Assembly (NCBI GenBank): GCA_021795235.1
Contig: JAJYPP010000002.1
Location: 1 to 64,000 of the forward strand
Reading direction: 5' to 3'
DNA from: a bacterium
Lineage (GTDB): Bacteria; Chloroflexota; Dormibacteria; Aeolococcales; Bog-877
DNA length: 64,000 bases
A model generated the notes under the pieces. The model had not been told where the DNA came from, did not search any database, and worked only from the letters and a program-made list of their open reading frames with translations. Positions 12,559 to 55,456 of the stretch are shown here, piece by piece (the stretch's first letter is position 1; each line of letters starts with the position of its first letter). The position numbers and the translations under genes are program-made.

Positions 12559-13500
12559 TCAACGACCGCTGACCAGAGCTCGAGCCATGGCGTCGTAAGC
12601 GTCGTCGTGGCTGAGATGAGCGTAGTGATCGGCTATCACCTTCTCCGAAGCACCAGCTATCGCCGCCAGCTGAATCGGGTTCATTCCCCGCCTCAGCATC
12701 TCCGTGATCCACGAGTGCCGGAGTAGGTGCGGGTGGACCGGCTTGCCCAGTTGCGCCTGTTTGCCCAGCAATCCCACCATCTGGGCCACCCCGGACTCCG
12801 TCAGGGGCTCGTAGGTGTCGCCGTGCAACCGCCGGCTCGAGTAGAAGATTCGACCCCCGGCGGCGTCCGCCGGCCGGTTTCGGCTCAGGCACTCCACCCT
12901 CCTGGCCAGATCGGGAAGCATCGGCACCAGCCGCTCGCGGTCGCCCTTGCCCCGAACCCGCAGGTAGGTCCGGTTGCCGCCTCGTCTGATGTCCTCCACG
13001 CTAAGCCCAGTCAGCTCCGCCAGACGCAGGCCGCAGTCGGCGAAGAGCCGGACGATGACCTTGTCCCGTTCGGTCCGAGCGCTGTCCTCGAGGCGGTCGA
13101 TCTCAGCCCGGCTGAGCACCTCCCTCTCTCGTCTTGGCTGCTTTGGCAGCTGAGGCCGCCCCCCTACCGCCTCCCCGCGAGCCTCCGCCCAGGCCAGCAG
13201 CTGCCGCACCGGGCGCACGTAACTGTGAACGCTCGCTTTGGAGAGCGGCTTGCCTCGCTCGCTCTGGCGGCTCAGAAGGTCGGTGGTGAATCGATCCAGC
13301 GTGGACTGAGAGAGGTCGTCGGTGGTGGCGACTCCCTCCCTGCGGCACCACGGAAGAAAAATCCTGTTGAGAGCGAACCCATAGGCATTCTCCAGCGTTC
13401 GCACCGAGAGCCCTCGGGCCCGGCAGGAGTTCAAGTAGTCGTCGACCAGGTCCGGTACCGAACTGGCCCCCGGGGCAACCGTCTTGAGTGTGACTGGCAT
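12559..13500 (-). CDS. Tyrosine recombinase (XerC/D-like integrase)
   Basis: 313 residues. A SAM-like core-binding domain occupies residues about 15-110. The catalytic domain contains the expected set: Arg in CGLRLAELTGL, Lys in GKGDRERLVP, His-x-x-Arg in HLLRHSW, His and nucleophilic Tyr in VIADHYAHLS. The gene is intact. It lies 172 bp from repeat copy B, with its 5' end facing that copy, as integrases often do. An AT-rich patch (13540-13660) between them could hold its promoter and arm-type sites. It probably catalyses tRNA-Gly integration of the islet or the larger element. Confidence 0.92.
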   Translation of the reverse strand: MPVTLKTVAPGASSVPDLVDDYLNSCRARGLSVRTLENAYGFALNRIFLPWCRREGVATTDDLSQSTLDRFTTDLLSRQSERGKPLSKASVHSYVRPVRQLLAWAEARGEAVGGRPQLPKQPRREREVLSRAEIDRLEDSARTERDKVIVRLFADCGLRLAELTGLSVEDIRRGGNRTYLRVRGKGDRERLVPMLPDLARRVECLSRNRPADAAGGRIFYSSRRLHGDTYEPLTESGVAQMVGLLGKQAQLGKPVHPHLLRHSWITEMLRRGMNPIQLAAIAGASEKVIADHYAHLSHDDAYDAMARALVSGR

Positions 13501-30192: not shown

Positions 30193-32279
30193 TCTGGGGT
30201 AAGCGCCCGACGGCAGCGGCACCCGACACCCGGCCGCGGACCCCGAGCGGCGTGCTCGATCCGAGCGTCGCGGAGGGCGAGTGGGCCGGGTTCTGGTTGG
30301 GCTGGACGGCGAACGCGCGCTGGGATGGCGCGGGCCGGCCCATGGTGGACAACTGGGACCAGATGGCGGTGCTCGATGGCGGGATCCAACTGGTCCCCCC
30401 GCCTGCGCCAGCGAGCCAAGAGCTCGCAGTCGGCCTCGTGGCGGGCCCCGGTTCCGGGAAGACGTCGATGATGGCGACGGCGGCGATGCTATGGGGCTCG
30501 TCGGCGATCATCGTGACGTCAAAGCCAGACCTTGGCAAGCTGGTAGCTGGCTACCGCTCGAGGCTGGGCCCCGTCCGGTGGTTGGACTGGTCTGGGGCGG
30601 CGGTGCCGGTGCCAGGAGTCATCCCGGTCCGCTGGTCGATCCTCGACGGCATGGACGACCAACGGACCGTGATAGCGCGCGTGGAAAGCCTGCTCTCGGC
30701 GGTTGAACACGGCGGACAAAGAGAGACAGGCATGTGGCGCGTGAACGCGGGCAAGATCGCCAAGGCCTACCTATTTGCGGCAGCCACCGCGGGGCTGGGC
30801 CCCGAGCAGATCCTGGACTGGCTGAGTGAGTGCGACGTGCGTACGTCGGCCGCGATCTGCGACAAAGTACCAGGGTGTCGGTTCGGCCGGGACCTCAGAG
30901 GGCTGCCTGTGACCGCACAAGTCACTCTTGAGGGCATGTTCGCGTCCGCGTCGCCTATGTTCGCGGCCCTTTCAGATCCCTTGGTGTTGGAGGCGATGCA
31001 GGACCCGAATCTGCGTGTGACGGACATGCTTCGTGAGCGCCAGACCTTGATCATCGTTGACCCGCAAGGAGAGTCTGAGGAGTCGCCCAACGCGCCTTTG
31101 ACAGTTGCGTTGGTGGCCCGCATCCTCTCTGAAGCCCGTCGGCTGGCCGCCGCCGAGCCTGGCGGGGCCGATCATCCCCCTCAGCGTCTCCACCCAGCCT
31201 TGGCACTTTTTTTGGATGAGGTCGCCAACGTGTGCCCCTTGCCCCTTTCCCGACTCCTGAGTACCGCGCGGGAGATCGGCCCGGTTGTGTGGGCCGTCCA
31301 GAGCCCCGGGCAGCTGGAAGCTCGCTATGGGAAAGCTCAATCCGAGGCCATATGGGACCACACGTCGGCCCGCATGCTGGGTTCGGGGATCGCCTCAGAG
31401 CAGTGGCTCGGGGGCGTGTCGGCCATATTGGGCAAGTTCGAAAAATTGTCGCCATCGTGGGACCCCGACGGGAAGCGGAGCCACGCGGTGAAGGAGCAGG
31501 AGGTGATGACAATCGCCCAGCTCTCGAGCATCCCGAAGGGTACCGCTCTGCTGATGAGGCAGGGCACTTGGGAGATGGTGCGCTGGCCGCACCCGGCCAG
31601 CGTCGAGCCAATGAAGACCTGGATCAAGCTCCCGGTTGAGCCCGCCGAGCAGAGAGAGGAGCGAGAGGCGGAGATCCGCGCTTGGAATGAAGCCGTGGAG
31701 GCGTCCCGTGGGGTAATCGTTGGTGAGTCGGAGAGCCCCCCGGAAGGGTCGCTGACAGTCAAGGGCACTCGCAACCCGTTCCCTTATGGACAGTGCACGT
31801 GGCGGGCCTACCACGAAAACCCTATCCCTGGTGTGGGCGGTGACGACGACGCCGACCGGTGGGTGGAAAGAGCGGCCCGCAGGGTGGTGCGGGTCCCACC
31901 AGACAGCCGACCGCCGGTCGGTGGGCTGGCGGTCTACCGCCCTGGCGCGGCGTATGGCGCTCACGGTCACGTCGCCGTGGTCACCGATGTCTTCCTTGGC
32001 CCACACAGTGGCGTGCAAGGCTATCGCGTCGGCGAGGCCAACCTCAAGCTCGGGAACCCCGGCCTCACTACCTACCGGGTGGTGACCTGGCCGGACCCGA
32101 ACGTTGTGGCATTCCTTCCGCCGTTGGACGAGTGGTACTCGTATAAGCCTGAGGCCGCTTTCGCGGAGCCCTGGGAAGCTGAGGAGGCTGGCAACGGCGG
32201 TGGAATGGACGGAGTAGGAGGCGGTGGCGACGATGAAGTAGGAACGCCGGACATGTTCCGGGAGGAGGCACAGTTGTGA
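30189..32279 (+). CDS. VirD4/TraG-type coupling ATPase fused to a C-terminal CHAP domain
   Basis: 696 residues from GTG 30189. Walker A GPGSGKTS at about residue 86-93; TSKPDLGKLVAGYRSRLG and FLDEVANVCPLPLSRLLSTA are T4CP hallmarks. The usual N-terminal membrane helices are absent. Residues about 525-650 form a CHAP domain: PFPYGQCTW with Cys536, GAHGHVAVV with His594, VGEAN with Glu616. CHAP domains are normally secreted peptidoglycan amidases or peptidases. The reading frame is continuous and codon use even, so the fusion is not a sequencing join of two genes. It ends EEAQL. Confidence 0.88.
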   Translation: MIWGKRPTAAAPDTRPRTPSGVLDPSVAEGEWAGFWLGWTANARWDGAGRPMVDNWDQMAVLDGGIQLVPPPAPASQELAVGLVAGPGSGKTSMMATAAMLWGSSAIIVTSKPDLGKLVAGYRSRLGPVRWLDWSGAAVPVPGVIPVRWSILDGMDDQRTVIARVESLLSAVEHGGQRETGMWRVNAGKIAKAYLFAAATAGLGPEQILDWLSECDVRTSAAICDKVPGCRFGRDLRGLPVTAQVTLEGMFASASPMFAALSDPLVLEAMQDPNLRVTDMLRERQTLIIVDPQGESEESPNAPLTVALVARILSEARRLAAAEPGGADHPPQRLHPALALFLDEVANVCPLPLSRLLSTAREIGPVVWAVQSPGQLEARYGKAQSEAIWDHTSARMLGSGIASEQWLGGVSAILGKFEKLSPSWDPDGKRSHAVKEQEVMTIAQLSSIPKGTALLMRQGTWEMVRWPHPASVEPMKTWIKLPVEPAEQREEREAEIRAWNEAVEASRGVIVGESESPPEGSLTVKGTRNPFPYGQCTWRAYHENPIPGVGGDDDADRWVERAARRVVRVPPDSRPPVGGLAVYRPGAAYGAHGHVAVVTDVFLGPHSGVQGYRVGEANLKLGNPGLTTYRVVTWPDPNVVAFLPPLDEWYSYKPEAAFAEPWEAEEAGNGGGMDGVGGGGDDEVGTPDMFREEAQL

Positions 32280-44241: not shown

Positions 44242-47200
44242 TCAGAGCTGCTGCTCTTGGCCCGGCTGCTGCTGCCTCGCCTCCTCCTCTTCATGCTTCC
44301 GGCCCCGGCGCCGCTGCTGGGCCTTCGCCTGGTCATTGTCGATGGTCCGACTCGCAACTCGAGCAACGGCCGCTGGGTCCGGTGTCGGCATGGGCGAGCC
44401 CTGCACTTGAGGAAGCTGTTCGGACGGGTGCACGACTTCAAGAGCAGACTCCTTGACCGGCACCTGGGGAGGCGCGACCGTGGCAGATGGGTCGAGGGGA
44501 ATGCCAGCCCTGGTCAAAGTGGCCTCCTGCCCGGCCACGATGGCTCGGGTCACCAATTGGAGGTCTCCCCGGTCAATGGCGTTGGTGATCTCAATCGCGG
44601 CCCGTAGCCGCGTAGCCCTTGGAGACTCCTGCGCGACGTACCGCTGGCGGGGCAAGTCCCGCAGAGGTCGTGCCGCCTCTGCCTCGCGCTCAACGGCCAT
44701 CGCCGCCAGCTGTGGCTGCAATTCGGGGATCGTGGTCGGCTCGGGCTCAGTCGCAAGCGGCTTGCTACGATCGCGGCGCAGACCAGCTTCGAGTAGGAGC
44801 TTTTGGTCATGTGCACTCGGGGTGTTTTCCTCTGGGAGGTGATGTTCCACATCCGCAGGCCTCTCCCCCGCGAAGCAGAGGATGTTCTCCTCCGAAGCCC
44901 GAGTCAGCGCGGTGTAGGCCCATTGGCGAGAGAGTGAGTTGGCATCGGCGAGCGTCCAAGCACGGCGCACGGAGTCACCCTGGCGACTGTGCACGGTCAT
45001 GGCGAACCCGTAATCGAGATAGTTCTCCGCATAGTACCGTGACAAGTACAAGAGTTCGCCGTCTGGCCTCCGCACTTGGACCACGCTCTGGCCGATCTTG
45101 TTCCGATTCAGGCGAAGCGGTAGCGACTGCAGGACAGGATTGTCTTCCGCCTCAACGTGAATCTTGGTCACGACCAACAGTTCACCAGTGGATACGCCAA
45201 GCTTTGGGTTGTTCCGCCGCGGCTGGAGGATGTCTCCTACCGCGAGCTTGAGCCCGCCGACTTCGATTTCGTCGCTTTGGATGGCTCCGCTTGCCACCAG
45301 CGCGGCCCGGATGGCAGTGTTGAGCGCCTTCCGGTCCTTGTGGGTCGCCGCCTGGGCTGCCACGGATTCGCCGCGGGCATGGGCCTCCACGTACTGATCC
45401 TTGATCCATTCGATCAGGTGAACCTTGGCCTCGCGGAGGCTGCCCGTCGCATAGACGACCCGTCCAGCACTAGTTGCCCAGTCGAGATAGGCCTTGGTAT
45501 CCCCCTCGTGGAGAGCATCAAGCGCGAGAGCTTCATCGTCATCCTTGAAGCGCTGGTTTTGCGTCAGGGTATAAGTGGGGACCAGGCGCGCCAACTCCTT
45601 GAGGGGCGCCGCCGGGCCGATGGGGTCGAGCTGAGCAAGATCGCCCACCAGGACCAGCTTGCCCTTCACGGCTTCGACGTGGCGGGCAAGAGCGTCGAGG
45701 TCCCTGGCATTGACCACCGAGGCTTCGTCGCACATCACTACGCATCCCTTCGGCAGGGGGGTGCCGCCGTGCTCGGCGGTCCCCTCCACGCGCTGCCTAA
45801 GCGCGGCGATAGTCAGCCACGCGCTTTCAGGAATGCCCAGGTCGGCGCCCAACGCCCTCGCCCTCCGCTTGACTGCGGCAGTCGCGATCACTGGGATTCG
45901 GCTATCTCTGAAAGCCTCTGCGGCCGCCTTGAGGGCGAAGCTCTTCCCTTTGCCCGCACCTCCAAAGACACACACGACGCCGGCGCCATCTTTGGTGATC
46001 CCCTCCACCATCAAGCTCTGCTCGGTGGGGTCTTTGGAGGTGCCGTCTTTGGTCTTGAAGAGACCGGGGTTGGATGCGAGCGCCTTGGTGACGGCCTCCG
46101 GCCGAGCAAGCGCTACGGCGGCGTCCAGCCGGCGGGTGGCGTTGTCCCGGATCCTCCGTTCCAGAGCGATGATCTCCTTGGTCGTGTACCGCTCGGCATG
46201 CTCGCCGCGCCATGCCCCTCGAGCGGCCACCACCCGCCCATCCTTCCGCCTGATCACGTCCTTGGCGGTGACCTCTCCGGTATCCCCTAGCCCCACGATC
46301 TCATCGGTCAGCTCGCCGCCCAAGAGGGCGCGGGCCAGCTCAACGCTGCGGTCCACGGGGACGCCCTGGGGGAAGTGGCCGGCAACCGCCTTGAGTGCGT
46401 CGGTGAACTCAAACACGTTCACGTTCTCTGTCAAAGCCCGGGCGAATCTCCGCGCCAGCGCAGGGTTGATCGCGGCGATCTCGGCCGCGCCCCGGTTCAG
46501 GACCTTTTGGATCTGCTCCTGACCCAGCCCGATTTCGGCAGCGATCTGGAGCCAGATCGCCCGAAGCTCAGCAGTGCTCTTCGGGCTCTCCTTGCCACTC
46601 CTTGTCCGATGGCTCGCTAGGTCGCGGGCCTCCGCCGAGGCCTCATCCAGAGGATCAAGCCCTCGGGCGATTCGGTCGGCATTGACCTCGGCCAGTGCAT
46701 CCCTGACCCCGCCTTCGACTTCGGCCGAACGCTGTGAGAAGGCTTCAATCACCTTACGGTCGTCCAGCCCCTTGATCTCGGATAGCCCGTTGACCGGCTG
46801 GGTCATCTGAAGTCCTAGACCCGCGAGGTTGGCCCGGTGCTGCGCCTCATAGAGGTATCCCGCCGTCTGTAGGAGCCGGTAAATCTCAGTGGCATCAAGG
46901 GCATTCCACTGCCCATCGGACAGGCTCCTCATCAGGTTAGCCACCACCACATGGGTGTGCATGTGAGGGTCCTCAGCACCATCCACTGGTCGGGTGGCGC
47001 GGTGGAAAAAGGCGGCGGCAACGAGCCCCGCAGTCCTCTCGTAGCGGATCGTGTCGGGATTAGGGTCGTCGAGACCGCCGCTGGCGTGACCCCTGCGCAC
47101 GAAGGAAACCTGCTCCTCCAGCCAGGCCAAGGCGGCATCCACGGCATCCTTGTGAGCGGTCTCCAGCTGGTCTGCGAAGGCTCGGTCGTCCGTCAGCGCC

Positions 47201-47925
47201 CACAGGATGGACACCGATTTCGGGCAGGTGAAGAGCAGGTCGTAGCCCGAGACTCGCGCCCCACCAGGCTGCCCCTTGGTTAGTTGGGCGCCAGTGTCCG
47301 GGTCCCTGCCCGCCATCAGGGCCTCGTACCGCTCCCGATTTTCGGTAAGGCTCACCCGTCCGGTGAGCCCCAGGTCCTCAACCGCGCCACGGCCGATCCA
47401 ACGGCCTGGGGCCTCGCCGTGCTCGGAGTAGTAGCCGAGGATCCGGCCATCCACCTCCTGAATGGCGACGCTGGATGCCATGATCACCCGTCCGTCAGGG
47501 CCAACGAAACCCGCCCCAACTTCGGCGGCGGTGACGGTGTGAACATCGTCCTTGGCAACCTCTCGCCCGTCTGCCAGGCGGTAGCCGACGGTCCGGCGCC
47601 GGGTGACCTTGCAGCGGTGGACGTCCTTGGCAGAGACCTCCTTACCACCCACTTGATAGCCAGTGATCCGACCCTCGGAGCGGATGGCGATTGCCCGGTC
47701 CAGCGCCACCTCGATCCCGTCGGCAAGCCTCAGACCAGCGACCGAGACCTCTCTGCGGATCCGCTTGACGTCATCTATCGGAACGGTTGTTCCGTCTGCT
47801 AGACGGTAGGCCACGAGGATGTTCGGGTCCAGGGATCGGGTGACACCCAACTCCTTGGCGGTGGCCACATCGGCCACCGCCCTGAGGTAGTAGCCGGGAT
47901 CTTTGATCTTTGCGATTCCTAACAT
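44242..47925 (-). CDS. MobF relaxase-helicase (TraA/TrwC-like) with repeat insertion
   Basis: 1227 residues from ATG 47925. The N-terminal TrwC domain has Tyr pairs at residues 12-13 (GYYLRAV) and 165-166 (GYYSEHG), and the metal-binding EDPHMHTHVVVAN near residue 324. The C-terminal RecD2-like helicase has Walker A GGAGKGKSFAL near 655 and CDEAS. Between the Tyr pairs, residues 37-162 are five tandem units of about 25 residues with pattern GYRLADGREVAKDDV, absent from typical members. The C-terminus is Gln/Glu-rich and ends QEQQL. It nicks oriT and unwinds the strand for transfer. Confidence 0.93.
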   Translation of the reverse strand: MLGIAKIKDPGYYLRAVADVATAKELGVTRSLDPNILVAYRLADGTTVPIDDVKRIRREVSVAGLRLADGIEVALDRAIAIRSEGRITGYQVGGKEVSAKDVHRCKVTRRRTVGYRLADGREVAKDDVHTVTAAEVGAGFVGPDGRVIMASSVAIQEVDGRILGYYSEHGEAPGRWIGRGAVEDLGLTGRVSLTENRERYEALMAGRDPDTGAQLTKGQPGGARVSGYDLLFTCPKSVSILWALTDDRAFADQLETAHKDAVDAALAWLEEQVSFVRRGHASGGLDDPNPDTIRYERTAGLVAAAFFHRATRPVDGAEDPHMHTHVVVANLMRSLSDGQWNALDATEIYRLLQTAGYLYEAQHRANLAGLGLQMTQPVNGLSEIKGLDDRKVIEAFSQRSAEVEGGVRDALAEVNADRIARGLDPLDEASAEARDLASHRTRSGKESPKSTAELRAIWLQIAAEIGLGQEQIQKVLNRGAAEIAAINPALARRFARALTENVNVFEFTDALKAVAGHFPQGVPVDRSVELARALLGGELTDEIVGLGDTGEVTAKDVIRRKDGRVVAARGAWRGEHAERYTTKEIIALERRIRDNATRRLDAAVALARPEAVTKALASNPGLFKTKDGTSKDPTEQSLMVEGITKDGAGVVCVFGGAGKGKSFALKAAAEAFRDSRIPVIATAAVKRRARALGADLGIPESAWLTIAALRQRVEGTAEHGGTPLPKGCVVMCDEASVVNARDLDALARHVEAVKGKLVLVGDLAQLDPIGPAAPLKELARLVPTYTLTQNQRFKDDDEALALDALHEGDTKAYLDWATSAGRVVYATGSLREAKVHLIEWIKDQYVEAHARGESVAAQAATHKDRKALNTAIRAALVASGAIQSDEIEVGGLKLAVGDILQPRRNNPKLGVSTGELLVVTKIHVEAEDNPVLQSLPLRLNRNKIGQSVVQVRRPDGELLYLSRYYAENYLDYGFAMTVHSRQGDSVRRAWTLADANSLSRQWAYTALTRASEENILCFAGERPADVEHHLPEENTPSAHDQKLLLEAGLRRDRSKPLATEPEPTTIPELQPQLAAMAVEREAEAARPLRDLPRQRYVAQESPRATRLRAAIEITNAIDRGDLQLVTRAIVAGQEATLTRAGIPLDPSATVAPPQVPVKESALEVVHPSEQLPQVQGSPMPTPDPAAVARVASRTIDNDQAKAQQRRRGRKHEEEEARQQQPGQEQQL

Positions 47926-51110: not shown

Positions 51111-51123
51111 GATCCCTGCTTCC

Positions 51124-51409
51124 TACCATCAATGCCCAACCCCGAAGACCTGCCTCAGCCAGATCCATACGCCCAATGCCCATCCCTGATCTCGGTAGGT
51201 GACCGATCAGAGCGGTGCCATACGTCCAGTGCCCATCCCGGCACTTCCGGAGCGGGTTGGACAGACCGATCGGAAAGGTGGGGTTGGGCATTGATGGTAT
51301 GGAGCCGAGTTCGCGCGGCTCTTGCCGGGCGGGCGGGGTGGGCATCAAGTGTCGGTTTCGGTCGGGTATGGGTCCTCGTCCACATCAGGTGGTGGGCATT
51401 GGTGGTATG
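51124..51409. repeat. Cluster of dispersed 22-bp repeats in both orientations
   Basis: Units with core CATACGYCSARTGCCCATC start at 51165 and 51218 (same orientation). Related units TACCATCAATGCCCAAC at 51124 and its inverse at 51280-51302, and a further inverse at 51391-51409, share ATGCCCA. A sixth copy lies at 52292. The stretch 51111-51437 has no gene. They look like a REP- or MITE-type intergenic family or protein-binding sites. Confidence 0.6.
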
Positions 51410-51437
51410 AAGTCGGGGCCGCTGCCGACCGGAACGC

Positions 51438-52157: not shown

Positions 52158-52291
52158 TTGGCGAGAGTTTAGATGACCAGGCCATGGTGAGGCGCAAGGC
52201 AGCTACGAGAGGCTTCGGGCCCGCTGGTCTCCGGCAAGTCCGGGAGAGTACGGCAGCTTCTCGACGCCGTCCACCCATAATCAGAACCGCT

Positions 52292-52313
52292 CCATACGCC
52301 GAGTGCCCATCCC
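52292..52313. repeat. Outlying copy of the 22-bp repeat
   Basis: Differs from the unit at 51218 at two positions; similarity extends about 12 bp upstream (ATCAGAACCGCT versus ATCAGAGCGGTG) and 5 bp downstream (GGCAC). It sits beyond the other end of the 239-residue membrane protein gene, in 52158-52485, which holds no gene. Confidence 0.6.
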
Positions 52314-52485
52314 GGCACGTCGTGATCGGCCCGGGCAGGCCAGGGGGACCTGGAAAGCTGGTCACGGGGGGTGTGGTTCGACTTCATCCGCCTCTTCTCA
52401 TCCCTGACTGCGAGCGGCTCGTAGAGGGTGGCAAGCCGCGCCATCTCGGCCTGTTCACCCGCCGTGAGTTCCCCCTTCGTCGCGG

Positions 52486-52569
52486 CTAGTCGCGTCGGTA
52501 GGCGGCCTTGAGTTCGGCAAGGTCTGGCTGGCCGGCGGCGCTCGTCTCGTCGTCGCCCGCTCCGTTCAT
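52486..52569 (-). CDS. 27-residue peptide coupled to the preceding gene
   Basis: ATG 52569 overlaps the stop of the 120-residue gene by 4 bp and opens a 27-codon acidic peptide (MNGAGDDETSAAGQPDLAEL and 7 more). The coupling and end-of-operon position suggest it is translated; nothing is known of its role. Confidence 0.35.
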   Translation of the reverse strand: MNGAGDDETSAAGQPDLAELKAAYRRD

Positions 52570-52928
52570 ATCGGATCCCCGAAGCCGTCGAAGTCGCCGG
52601 GCAGGCTCCACGGCCAGGTCCCCTCCCGGACGGCCCGAGCGACGCGACCGTTCTCGTAGAGCTTCTGGATCCGCTCCACCACCTCGTCGGCGTCGAGGTG
52701 CTCGCGTGTCTGGCCGTCGGTGCTGGGGTTGTTGGCCACGTGGAAGCGGACCCAAGGGTCAGGGCTCTTGCTCAGTTCGGCAAGCTCCTCCGGCGTGGTG
52801 CTGGTCATGGCCGCCCCGACATCTGGGCGGGGACAGCTGCACGCGATGGAATTCTCGACCGCCCGCTGCTGCTTGGCAGTAAGCCGATAGAAGGGCCACG
52901 AGTTCATGAAGTTCTCGACTATTTTCAT
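52566..52928 (-). CDS. Small protein with a leucine-rich-variant type repeat
   Basis: 120 residues. EELAELSKSPDPWVRFHVAN with NPST after it matches one LRV/HEAT-like unit (L-x-x-L-A-x-x-x-D-x-x-V-R-x-x-V-A-x-N-P). CSCP near residue 31 could join a metal site as in LRV proteins. AGGAGA precedes the ATG, which follows leader-repeat copy 1. Confidence 0.6.
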   Translation of the reverse strand: MKIVENFMNSWPFYRLTAKQQRAVENSIACSCPRPDVGAAMTSTTPEELAELSKSPDPWVRFHVANNPSTDGQTREHLDADEVVERIQKLYENGRVARAVREGTWPWSLPGDFDGFGDPI

Positions 52929-53006
52929 CTCAGTTCTCCTCTTGGGGCCGGGCTTGGGAACCGGCCTGCCGCATTGACCGGCGAGGTGGCGGCCCCTCTG
53001 CGTTGG
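52929..53006 (-). promoter_or_regulatory. Leader repeat copy 1 (5' of the 120-residue gene)
   Basis: On the gene strand it begins ACGCAGAGGGGCCGCCA and contains GGTCAATGCGGC, then the hairpin GGCCGG-N9-CCGGCC, then the ribosome-binding site. Copies 2 and 3 match over about 60 bp. The first hairpin (CCGCC/GGCGG in the others) is weakened here (CCGCC/GCCGG). It starts directly after the upstream gene's stop. Confidence 0.65.
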
Positions 53007-53480
53007 TTACTCAGCCCCCTCATCCGTCAAGTAGTCAACGAGACCGGGCGGAGCGTCCCCTACATCGTGAGGCCGATCCTCCCATTGCACTAGCCATCGC
53101 CCGCAGACACCGCCCGCCTTGGTGGCCGCCCCACCCGACGGCACCACCTTGACTACGCGGTCGCCAGTCAATAGGTACTCTGGCAGATCGCGGATGAGGC
53201 CCACCTCGTAGAGACGGAGATCGAGATCGTCCGACCACCAGAAGCGGATCGTGTCAAGAAGCTCCACATCCTTGCTCCCGAACACCTTGATTGTGAGACC
53301 GGTCTCGTCGGTGACCAACGCGATCTCGACACCAGCAGGCGCAGTGCGCTCCAAACAGCCCAGAGCCCGGGCGGCAACCTGTCGCATCGACTCCGGCGAG
53401 ATCGCCGGCAAAGAGGGCTCCGTAACACTTAGGGGCGACCCGAAGCGCCGAGTCACCTCATCCTCATCAAGGGCGCTCAT
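53007..53480 (-). CDS. Hypothetical protein in leader-repeat cluster
   Basis: 157 residues from ATG 53480, preceded by GGAGGAAG in leader copy 2. Contains alternating strands and helices (GVEIALVTDETGLTIKVFGS, IRFWWSDDLDLRLYEVG) and an acidic end. No family recognised. The upstream in-frame extension to 53564 would translate the leader and is rejected. Confidence 0.6.
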   Translation of the reverse strand: MSALDEDEVTRRFGSPLSVTEPSLPAISPESMRQVAARALGCLERTAPAGVEIALVTDETGLTIKVFGSKDVELLDTIRFWWSDDLDLRLYEVGLIRDLPEYLLTGDRVVKVVPSGGAATKAGGVCGRWLVQWEDRPHDVGDAPPGLVDYLTDEGAE

Positions 53481-53560
53481 CTCACTTCCTCCAGTAGTGG
53501 CCGGGCTTGGGAACCGGCCAGCCGCATTGACCGCCTCAGTGGCGGCCCCTCTGCGTGGGC
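53481..53560 (-). promoter_or_regulatory. Leader repeat copy 2 (5' of the 157-residue gene)
   Basis: Carries both hairpins: CCGCC-N5-GGCGG and GGCCGG-N9-CCGGCC, separated by TCAATGCGGCT, and CACTACTGGAGGAAG before the ATG. Nearly identical to copy 3. Confidence 0.7.
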
Positions 53561-53570
53561 TCACCCCTTT

Positions 53571-53729
53571 TCAGATGGCGGAATCGTTTTCCCGCTCCTG
53601 GGCCTCCCTCTCCGACTTCATCTCCAACTCCCGAGCATCCATCTCTCTCATCCGCCCCTCCCACGCCCTCTGCACCGCCGCCTCATCCTCCGCCGCCTCC
53701 TCCGCCTCCTTCGCCTGTGTGTCGCTCAT
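53571..53729 (-). CDS. Very small highly charged protein
   Basis: 52 residues, about half Glu, Lys, Arg or Asp (MSDTQAKEAEEAAEDEAAVQ, then RMREMDARELEMKSERE). Single coiled coil. It lies exactly between leader copies 2 and 3 with GGAGGAAG before its ATG, which supports translation in spite of its simple composition. Confidence 0.55.
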   Translation of the reverse strand: MSDTQAKEAEEAAEDEAAVQRAWEGRMREMDARELEMKSEREAQERENDSAI

Positions 53730-53803
53730 TTGGCTTCCTCCAGTAGTGGCCGGGCTTGGGACCGGCCAGCCGCATTGACCGCCTCGATGGCGGCCCCTCT
53801 GCG
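53730..53803 (-). promoter_or_regulatory. Leader repeat copy 3 (5' of the 52-residue gene)
   Basis: CCGCC-N5-GGCGG and GGCCGG-N8-CCGGCC hairpins and TACTGGAGGAAGCCAA before ATGAGC. It abuts the upstream gene's TGA. Its final 15 bases recur before the 159-residue gene at 54283 (TGGAGGAAGCCAAATGAGC). Confidence 0.7.
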
Positions 53804-54283
53804 TCAGCTATTGGCCGACTGGAGGGCTCCCACGCCCGCTTCGGCATAAGCCGCCTGCTCATGCTCCAGCGCAGCGGCGGCGATGAGCGCGCGGGCTTTG
53901 TCAGGGTCGATGGCTTGGCCCTTATTGGAGCGGGCCAGGCCTGCGAGGACCTCCAGCGTCGCGCGCACCTCGACGGTGTCCCGGAACGTTGGGCCGGTGA
54001 AAGTGGTTGAACCGTAGTGTCCAGGCTCTCCATGCTCCCAAAAATAGCTGTGCCCGTGCTCTATGTTCTCGTTGCAGTGGTCTGTGTCACAGACCGCTCG
54101 GGTGAGCAAGATCACCCCAGGCCGCCATGCTCCTCCCGCTCGCCGCCAGCCGCGCATCCCGCCCCTCGGGCCGCGGATTCGCTCGTCGTCCAGATCCACT
54201 GCATGGCTGTTCGGCAGCAGCTCTTCCAGAGCTTGCGCAAGCGCCTTAGTTGCGCTGGTCCTGTTACCTGTCTTGTTGCTCAT
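53804..54283 (-). CDS. Hypothetical protein in leader-repeat cluster
   Basis: 159 residues. N-terminal helix (SATKALAQALEELLPNSHAV), a central Cys/His-bearing stretch (CDTDHCNENIEHGHSYFWEH) that could bind metal, and a helical C-terminus. Overlaps the upstream gene by 4 bp. No family recognised. Confidence 0.6.
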   Translation of the reverse strand: MSNKTGNRTSATKALAQALEELLPNSHAVDLDDERIRGPRGGMRGWRRAGGAWRPGVILLTRAVCDTDHCNENIEHGHSYFWEHGEPGHYGSTTFTGPTFRDTVEVRATLEVLAGLARSNKGQAIDPDKARALIAAAALEHEQAAYAEAGVGALQSANS

Positions 54284-54582
54284 TTGGCTTCCTCCATGGC
54301 CTCAAGGGCCAAGGTCAGTTGTGCGGGCGGTGTCTTAGAGACTGTCCGCTCCCACGCCCGCTTCGGGAGCCAGTCATTGGCGTCGGTCCAGTCGATCACT
54401 TCCAGCACGGCATCGCTGGCCGTCTTGAAGTCGCAGCCTGCGGAGTCCCTGACCATGAGCATTAGCTCGTACCAAGTCGGGCGGTAGCCTCCGCGCTTGG
54501 GGCCATCCCCCGCCCAGTGGAGCGAGAGAGCACGGGCAGTGCGCTCCGGGTCTACCAGCTGACGGGTGCGGCGCCCTCTCAT
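54280..54582 (-). CDS. Hypothetical protein in leader-repeat cluster
   Basis: 100 residues from ATG 54582. TWYELMLMVRDSAGCDFKTA and AVLEVIDWTDANDWLPKRAW give a compact helical protein. ATGA overlaps both ends. No family recognised. Confidence 0.6.
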   Translation of the reverse strand: MRGRRTRQLVDPERTARALSLHWAGDGPKRGGYRPTWYELMLMVRDSAGCDFKTASDAVLEVIDWTDANDWLPKRAWERTVSKTPPAQLTLALEAMEEAK

Positions 54583-54806
54583 TCCAGCCCATCCCTGAGA
54601 GCGGCCATCCGTTGCCGGGCTCGCTCCACCTCGCCGGTCCAGTACTCGACTGCGTCCCAGCCGAAGTCCAAGGCGCACTCCAGATGGAACTCCGCGAAGT
54701 AGAGCGCGTCCTCAGCAATTTCGCGGCGCTGAATTAGAAAGCGCATCTCGGCGGTGGCTCCCAGGTCATCGGCGACATCCTGGGCCGTGCGCTCGATCTC
54801 GTGCAT
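54579..54806 (-). CDS. Small helical hypothetical protein
   Basis: 75 residues (MHEIERTAQDVADDLGATAE, then FHLECALDFGWDAVEYW), mostly helix, ending 4 bp into the next gene. Nine bp separate it from the upstream gene. No family recognised. Confidence 0.6.
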   Translation of the reverse strand: MHEIERTAQDVADDLGATAEMRFLIQRREIAEDALYFAEFHLECALDFGWDAVEYWTGEVERARQRMAALRDGLE

Positions 54807-54815
54807 GCCGCGCTC

Positions 54816-55142
54816 CTATGACCTTGCCAAGGCCCGAGCCCGAGAGAGGGCACGGGCAGAGGCCGCGTAGTTGCCGAAGGCCGCCGCCAAGTCTGCCCTC
54901 GCCCGCTCCCCCGCCGCCCTGATGGCTTGGACCGCTTCCGGGGCCCCGTCCACAGGAACGCGTATGACCTTGATATTGGCCGCCATGGCCGCGTCATAGG
55001 CGGCGCGAGCCCTGACCTCCGCGGCCTCCGCCTTTCCGTGAGCGAGGCGGGCCGCCTCGAAGTCATCCGTCGGAGTGGCGGGCATGGTGTCCACCGGGGC
55101 CGTTCCGAAGTCGAACGTCAAGAGGTCGGAACAGTTCCTCAT
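54816..55142 (-). CDS. Ala/Arg-rich helical hypothetical protein
   Basis: 108 residues with a short N-terminal segment (DLLTFDFGTAPVDT) and a long helix rich in Ala, Arg and Glu. 4-bp overlap with the first gene of the cluster. No family recognised. Confidence 0.6.
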   Translation of the reverse strand: MRNCSDLLTFDFGTAPVDTMPATPTDDFEAARLAHGKAEAAEVRARAAYDAAMAANIKVIRVPVDGAPEAVQAIRAAGERARADLAAAFGNYAASARALSRARALARS

Positions 55143-55456
55143 GCGTACACCCCCACGGTCCGAGCCGCGGTCCTGACCACCAGGGCGAGGCTCTCGGCGT
55201 ACACGTCGTCGATCTCGTAGGTCGTGGTGCTCTCGAAGGTCCGGCGATCGAACTTCATCGCCTCGACGGTGTAGGTGTCGTCAGCCGCCAGCAGGATGAC
55301 CACCTTGCGCAGAGTCCTGCCCGCCGACTGGCCCACTGTGAAGTGGAGCCCATCGCCCCGATCGACCATCTGCCGGGCTCCGAGGCCTTGCAGTGTGGCA
55401 TCGCCGATCTGCCGAAGGATCGTCCGAGCGTCTGCCGGTCGGGTGGCCTTGTTCAT
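55139..55456 (-). CDS. First gene of the leader-repeat cluster, hypothetical
   Basis: 105 residues. LHFTVGQSAGRTLRKVVILL and YTVEAMKFDRRTFESTTTYE suggest a beta-rich fold. TAATATATA lies 6 bp before the ATG with no ribosome-binding site, so the message may be leaderless, with promoter at about 55460-55490. From here seven further genes follow leftwards with few gaps. Confidence 0.62.
   Translation of the reverse strand: MNKATRPADARTILRQIGDATLQGLGARQMVDRGDGLHFTVGQSAGRTLRKVVILLAADDTYTVEAMKFDRRTFESTTTYEIDDVYAESLALVVRTAARTVGVYA

Follow-up and report, generated by a model that had tools for sequence, protein, structure and literature searches.

The window analysed here is a stretch of 64,000 nucleotides (nt) from contig JAJYPP010000002.1 of a Dormibacteria genome (assembly GCA_021795235.1), and our subject is the gene cluster at its positions 52486-55456, which comprises nine open reading frames (ORFs; g1 to g9) on the minus strand, overlapping or adjoining one another. 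Three near-identical leaders, with a repeated core of 71 nt in common, separate g5 from g6, g6 from g7 and g7 from g8 (Table 1). By family, these leaders are type-P5 twister self-cleaving ribozymes. The first-pass annotation of this DNA had described three nearly identical leaders of 60-75 bp, each beginning at the previous stop codon and holding two hairpins. The repeats are real, but they measure 74-90 nt, and their conserved part starts 0, 15 and 4 nt past the preceding stop in leaders 1, 2 and 3, respectively. The hairpin motifs were read correctly, GGCCGG-N8/9-CCGGCC being present in all three leaders and CCGCC-N5-GGCGG in two of them, and they correspond to twister helix P4 with its loop L4 and to helix P1; what had been overlooked is helix P2 and the pseudoknots. 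It is these parts, together with the internal loop GAGGG, that make the leader a ribozyme; P2, the loop and the strands of the pseudoknots sit between and around the P1 and P4 hairpins.

A scan of the window against the whole of Rfam gave three matches at the curated thresholds, all to Twister-P5 (RF02684, gathering cut-off 37.6 bits), all on the gene strand and coinciding with the three leaders; the E-values of Table 1 were calculated for 64 kb against 4227 Rfam families. The full-length model aligned from 1 to 58 with the permutation of this type, P1 being a closed hairpin and the order of the strands P2-P1-P2-P4. The catalytic core is kept in all three copies (GCAGAGGG, AA after the cut, UGCGGC, CCGGU and CCCAAGCCCGG), and the conserved A 3′ of the cut, the GA of L1 and the CAAG of L4 are in place. 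Pseudoknot T1 reads GGG/CCC, the letters GGC/GCC are present at the T2 position, and P2, P1 and P4 all form in the RNAfold minimum free energy structures of copies 1 and 2. Thus the leaders agree with known type-P5 twisters in sequence, secondary structure, permutation, T1 pairs and conserved core; they differ in being three tandem copies in a single operon, in a C for U 5′ of the cut, in an extra U in L4 of copies 2 and 3, and in the short P1 of copy 3, which has 4 contiguous pairs. A C at the same place was found in 13 of 165 copies, and an extra L4 nucleotide in seven copies elsewhere. A review of crystal structures reports that the base before the twister cut is nonconserved and that P1 is dispensable for cleavage (PMC5408937). 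Since the C before the cut and the extra L4 nucleotide occur in natural relatives as well, all three window ribozymes are expected from their sequence to be active, copy 3 least certainly.

By the terms of the first-pass annotation, a lack of further copies and of covariation would have refuted its reading; instead, many further copies were found, and they covary strongly. IMG/VR was scanned with patterns that left P1 unspecified, and entire records were then searched with the covariance model; the sample favours strict matches to the core and includes a few near-duplicate records, so that its counts are not prevalence figures. P1 pairs 2-5 are formed in 643 of 660 cells over 165 copies, against 298 ± 13 with shuffled partners, a count slightly inflated by a parser that selects the AA favouring pairing; in a fixed frame the figure for 47 copies is 160/188 against 93 ± 7. 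All three positions of pseudoknot T1 are paired in 158 of 159 copies, through eight combinations including GTG/CAC, GAG/CTC and GCG/CGC. Moreover, the related phage records L083 and L084 share a gene at 75% identity, and the ribozyme behind it has the same core in both, with a P1 that differs throughout and is nevertheless paired.

The ribozyme was found in 68 virus records, 28 of which hold at least two copies, always on a single strand and up to a maximum of 20 (G479, 20; G474, 15; G475, 14; G472 and G074, 9 each). In G479 two ten-gene runs have a ribozyme at every boundary. Same-strand ribozymes bracketing genes, as in a tandem ribozyme-cut operon, are found in the window, with its three copies, and in these 28 records. 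In one twister array (L081, 1333-1394) a type-II hammerhead (43.9 bits) abuts a stop codon; its occupying the same stop-abutting place suggests that cleavage itself is the selected property. Another type-II hammerhead (L078, 5245-5304; 31.9 bits, below the cut-off) lies 14 nt ahead of a start. The layout is not confined to accessory genes, since a twister directly follows an HK97-type major capsid gene in L091 (3457-3517). DUF932 or DUF932-like genes recur beside ribozymes in L079, L080, L083, L084, L170, L173 and L178, and DUF2786/DUF7168 and ArdC genes also occur near ribozymes in the virus records.

Annotated phage and plasmid records gave only chance-level partial matches to related ribozymes; GTDB genomes held 13 exact matches to the pattern, ten of which failed the covariance model and were dropped; and the 3.67-Mb host genome holds no other Twister-P5 copy above the cut-off. 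Twister-P5 is carried by 2 of 400 genomes of the host phylum, only one of them besides the host; it is accordingly a feature of mobile DNA and does not characterise the lineage.

The position of the ribozymes relative to genes was determined with a purpose-written gene finder blind to ribozymes, the control being ribozymes placed randomly in intergenic space. A preceding stop codon lies within 5 nt of 30/46 ribozymes in a first set (3.4 ± 1.7 at random) and of 78/108 in a second (8.4 ± 2.9), which makes 108/154 against about 12 expected. The commonest spacing is -2, so that the ribozyme shares the final two bases of the stop codon, often UAG. The next start follows the ribozyme end at a median of 29-32 nt (20 nt between ribozyme 2 and g7), and consecutive ribozymes enclose one gene in 49 of 98 intervals and two genes in 28.

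Comparison with relatives shows the locus in three states. A search with g1 retrieved the same element backbone in two of them, G003 and G015. In G015, g4 and g8 overlap directly as ATGA, with neither leader nor insert. In G003, g4 and g8 are separated by a 171-amino-acid (aa) gene and, after it, a 77-nt leader (L101, 8893-8969). This leader has lost the cut-site AA and the 5′ strand of P2 but retains the P4 half and, past the stop, a P1-like hairpin of 9 perfect bp; the covariance model gave no match to it. In the window g5, g6 and g7 stand between g4 and g8, each closed by an intact ribozyme. The genes g1, g4 and g8 are old, and the series of no insert, one gene with a decayed ribozyme, and three genes with three ribozymes indicates that ribozymes arrive with the inserted genes. 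The recurrence of the ribosome-binding site (RBS)-start motif GGAGGAAGCCAAATGAGC at the unit edges suggests that the inserted unit runs from start to start. The first-pass annotation had called the cluster modular, with genes seemingly placed one after another behind leader copies; the insertion states bear out the modularity, with the difference that the ribozyme closes an inserted gene instead of introducing it. When travel with the upstream or the downstream gene was compared across phages, both members were followed by a ribozyme in 14 pairs against 11.6 expected, a lean towards the upstream gene on few pairs. The degenerate leader of G003 may still serve as a 3′ hairpin.

We consider it probable that each leader cuts a polycistronic transcript behind one gene and ahead of the RBS of the next, giving separate, insulated mRNAs, and that genes are added together with a ribozyme on their 3′ side. 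The type-P5 permutation makes P1 a closed hairpin, directly 3′ of which is the scissile bond, and hairpins are predicted from this at the ends of both cut products. The 3′ end of the upstream message would be formed by the P1 hairpin and a 2′,3′-cyclic phosphate, about 27-45 nt beyond the stop codon; the downstream message would start with 5′-HO-AAUGCGGC, continue through the P4 hairpin and leave the Shine-Dalgarno sequence free. An array would in this manner convert a single transcript into individual mRNAs whose ends are standard and capped by hairpins. An accessory gene entering the operon would neither perturb its neighbours nor be perturbed by them, which would suit genes that are gained and lost. 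The simplest purpose would be to obtain mRNAs that are each stable and are insulated from one another; cleavage in cells, altered stability, translational insulation and a selective benefit are what we infer from the arrangement.

Several observations weigh against this proposal. Cutting by the window copies is deduced from their sequence; ribozyme 3, with its short P1, does not adopt a twister-like minimum free energy fold in isolation; and the nine genes are presumed to lie on a common transcript. A scan for intrinsic terminators at the leaders returned none. In addition, about 30% of the sampled ribozymes lie away from any recognised stop codon, and G003 retains a leader without its catalytic parts, from which it follows that the ribozyme is not essential there.

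Other explanations have to be set against the same evidence. The first-pass annotation had offered a translational switch, an RNA-protein binding site or a processing site; the last is supported, although the self-cleaving family had gone unnamed. That the leader should be a translational switch or a protein-binding hairpin pair, with its likeness to a ribozyme incidental or a remnant, would fit its place beside the RBS in a gene's 5′ region and the ability of P1 and P4 to form alone in copies 1 and 2. We hold it to be quite improbable, as the RBS lies outside the conserved fold, both conservation and covariation are seen in the catalytic core and pseudoknot T1, and a hammerhead can substitute. 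Cleavage could also act as a decay signal which destabilises or silences the flanking messages, and the new 5′-OH and cyclic-phosphate ends could indeed feed decay. Both new ends would nevertheless be left as closed hairpins, P1 is paired in nearly all 165 copies in spite of being dispensable for cutting, as fits a protected 3′ end, and ten-gene runs with a decay signal at each gene would be odd, so that this effect appears unlikely.

Ribozymes that bracket g6 and g7 would produce RNAs with 5′-OH and cyclic-phosphate ends, the substrate of RtcB, and such gene-length RNAs might be excised and ligated into circular mRNAs, as in designs that combine ribozymes with RtcB. Circular mRNAs are unlikely in the host because no RtcB family gene was found in its genome (92% complete), whereas 9 of 14 control genomes gave a match; furthermore, Perreault et al. 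found no circles with tandem hammerheads (PMC3088659), and we give this possibility very little weight. Finally, unidirectional arrays of alternating ORFs and hairpins, together with insertion states in relatives, recall an integron-like cassette array in which the repeats are DNA recombination sites (an ORF with a folded attC) and the RNA is beside the point. The R′/R″ core sites of integron attC, with the signature RYYYAAC...GTTRRRY, are however absent around all 165 copies, the conservation pattern, pseudoknot pairs included, is that of a catalytic RNA, and the repeated edge falls at the RBS-start motif, outside the hairpins; this explanation is scarcely credible.

Self-cleaving ribozymes are known by the thousand from bacteria and phages, and to our knowledge their purpose there is open, glmS apart. 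Arrays of up to 20 twisters, set at stop codons some 30 nt ahead of the following start, provide a strong positional clue to such a purpose, and one that is readily tested; the three-state locus offers a natural comparison with and without the ribozyme. The ribozyme family itself is already known, as are tandem ribozymes in prophages, for hammerheads. In vitro, tandem hammerheads that flank prophage genes cut polycistronic RNAs of about 2 kb, and one set was shown to cut in E. coli too; Perreault et al. proposed that they split long transcripts into gene-length mRNAs (PMC3088659). Those prophages and the window have in common several self-cleaving ribozymes bracketing single genes or short blocks. 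The twister arrays differ in their fold, their greater length (up to 20) and their fixed place at stop codons, and the window array in its location in a conjugative-type element and in the comparative evidence of insertion with genes. Bacterial twisters and hammerheads have also been found enriched near Mu-like phage genes, for a biological reason called unknown, and the gene associations of bacterial ribozymes were termed unexplained (PMC10085705). The ribozymes summarised there are alike in class, phage association and proximity to other ribozymes; in contrast, the window element has a relaxase and a coupling protein, and the array genes are small orphans or of DUF932, DUF2786 or ArdC type. 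RiboJ, a ribozyme with a hairpin placed ahead of the RBS, insulates expression and raises the transcript level about twofold (PMC6206723). There too a hairpin remains before the RBS and standardises the mRNA 5′ end; RiboJ is synthetic, hammerhead-based and located at a promoter, whereas the window twisters are natural and intercistronic and would cap the upstream 3′ end as well. As far as could be tested, the long same-strand Twister-P5 array, its stop-codon position, the conjugative-type element and the insertion states of gene plus ribozyme are new, and an earlier mention in the primary twister papers is possible. The twister-array layout would be a natural model for insulated multi-gene expression.

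A broader proposal can be made tentatively, and we think it doubtful in its full extent: type-P5 twisters might generally replace terminators and internal promoters in the accessory arrays of phages and conjugative elements, each ORF being acquired with its own 3′ ribozyme. As the stop codon abuts P2 or belongs to it, a terminating ribosome might hold the ribozyme open, so that cutting would be timed by translation of the upstream gene.

Table 1. Features of the ribozyme array and of the surrounding element (window positions unless stated).
Feature	Position	Strand	Size	Remarks
g1	55139-55456	-	105 aa	phrog_9437 family; 92% identity in G003, about 80% in G015
g2	54816-55142	-	108 aa	overlaps g1; G003 homologue 64% identical
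g3	54579-54806	-	75 aa	homology searches returned no homologue
g4	54280-54582	-	100 aa	75% identity in G003 and G015; final backbone gene ahead of the inserts
g5	53804-54283	-	159 aa	inserted gene; overlaps g4; ribozyme 1 behind it; orphan
g6	53571-53729	-	52 aa	between ribozymes 1 and 2; predicted single-gene RNA 53776-53529 (about 248 nt)
g7	53007-53480	-	157 aa	orphan; between ribozymes 2 and 3; predicted single-gene RNA 53528-52976 (about 553 nt)
g8	52566-52928	-	120 aa	backbone gene; 55-58% identity in G003 and G015
g9	52486-52569	-	27 aa	overlaps g8
Leader 1	53730-53803	-	74 nt	g5/g6
Leader 2	53481-53570	-	90 nt	g6/g7
Leader 3	52929-53006	-	78 nt	g7/g8
Ribozyme 1	53750-53803	-		g5/g6, directly after g5 stop; 53.4 bits, E 2.8e-8; predicted cut 53777 (C)/53776 (A)
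Ribozyme 2	53501-53555	-		g6/g7; 46.3 bits, E 1.8e-6; predicted cut 53529 (C)/53528 (A); extra U in L4
Ribozyme 3	52948-53002	-		g7/g8; 41.3 bits, E 3.5e-5; predicted cut 52976 (C)/52975 (A); extra U in L4
RBS-start motif	54274-54296	-		at g5; repeated at g6 (53720-53742), imperfectly at g7 (53471-53493)
TrwC/MobF-type relaxase-helicase	44242-47925	-		PF08751, E 2.4e-66; best matches mobF plasmid relaxases
TraG/VirD4-type coupling protein	30252-32279	+		PF12696, E 4.8e-15; CHAP domain PF05257, E 9.2e-9
Tyrosine integrase	12559-13500	-		one side of the element; PF00589, E 6.9e-22
Second XerC-like ORF	contig 64095-65033			just beyond the window; judged by eye

The array is located in an integrated conjugative-type element, which encodes a tyrosine integrase, a MobF/TrwC relaxase, a TraG-type coupling protein, DnaB and ParA; past about 65 kb the contig resembles ordinary chromosome. 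The coupling protein additionally bears a CHAP (peptidoglycan hydrolase) domain. ORFs resembling VirB6 and VirB4 of type IV secretion systems and a CHAP-like protein were noticed by eye far from the relaxase, some 54 kb past the element (G000:C104, 118305-124102).

It had been stated in the first-pass annotation that none of the nine proteins is recognised. This stands for g5 and g7, which have no homologues in IMG/VR, g7 matching only itself across 110 genomes of the host class. It does not stand for g1, which matches phrog_9437 (E 1.5e-9), a family of unknown function, and has homologues of 33-37% identity in phages TM4, Mufasa, Milano and phiM12, and it is weakly contradicted by g8, which resembles LRV at a score below the cut-off. 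Judged by eye, g9 seems to be related to the gene that follows g8 in G003 and to be a shortened form, the two sharing an ELKAAY motif. Dispersed imperfect copies of a CATACNCCCAATGCCCATCCC-like motif, in both orientations, lie at 51111-51422 and 52280-52341 of the window and may represent a repeat element or a cluster of binding sites.

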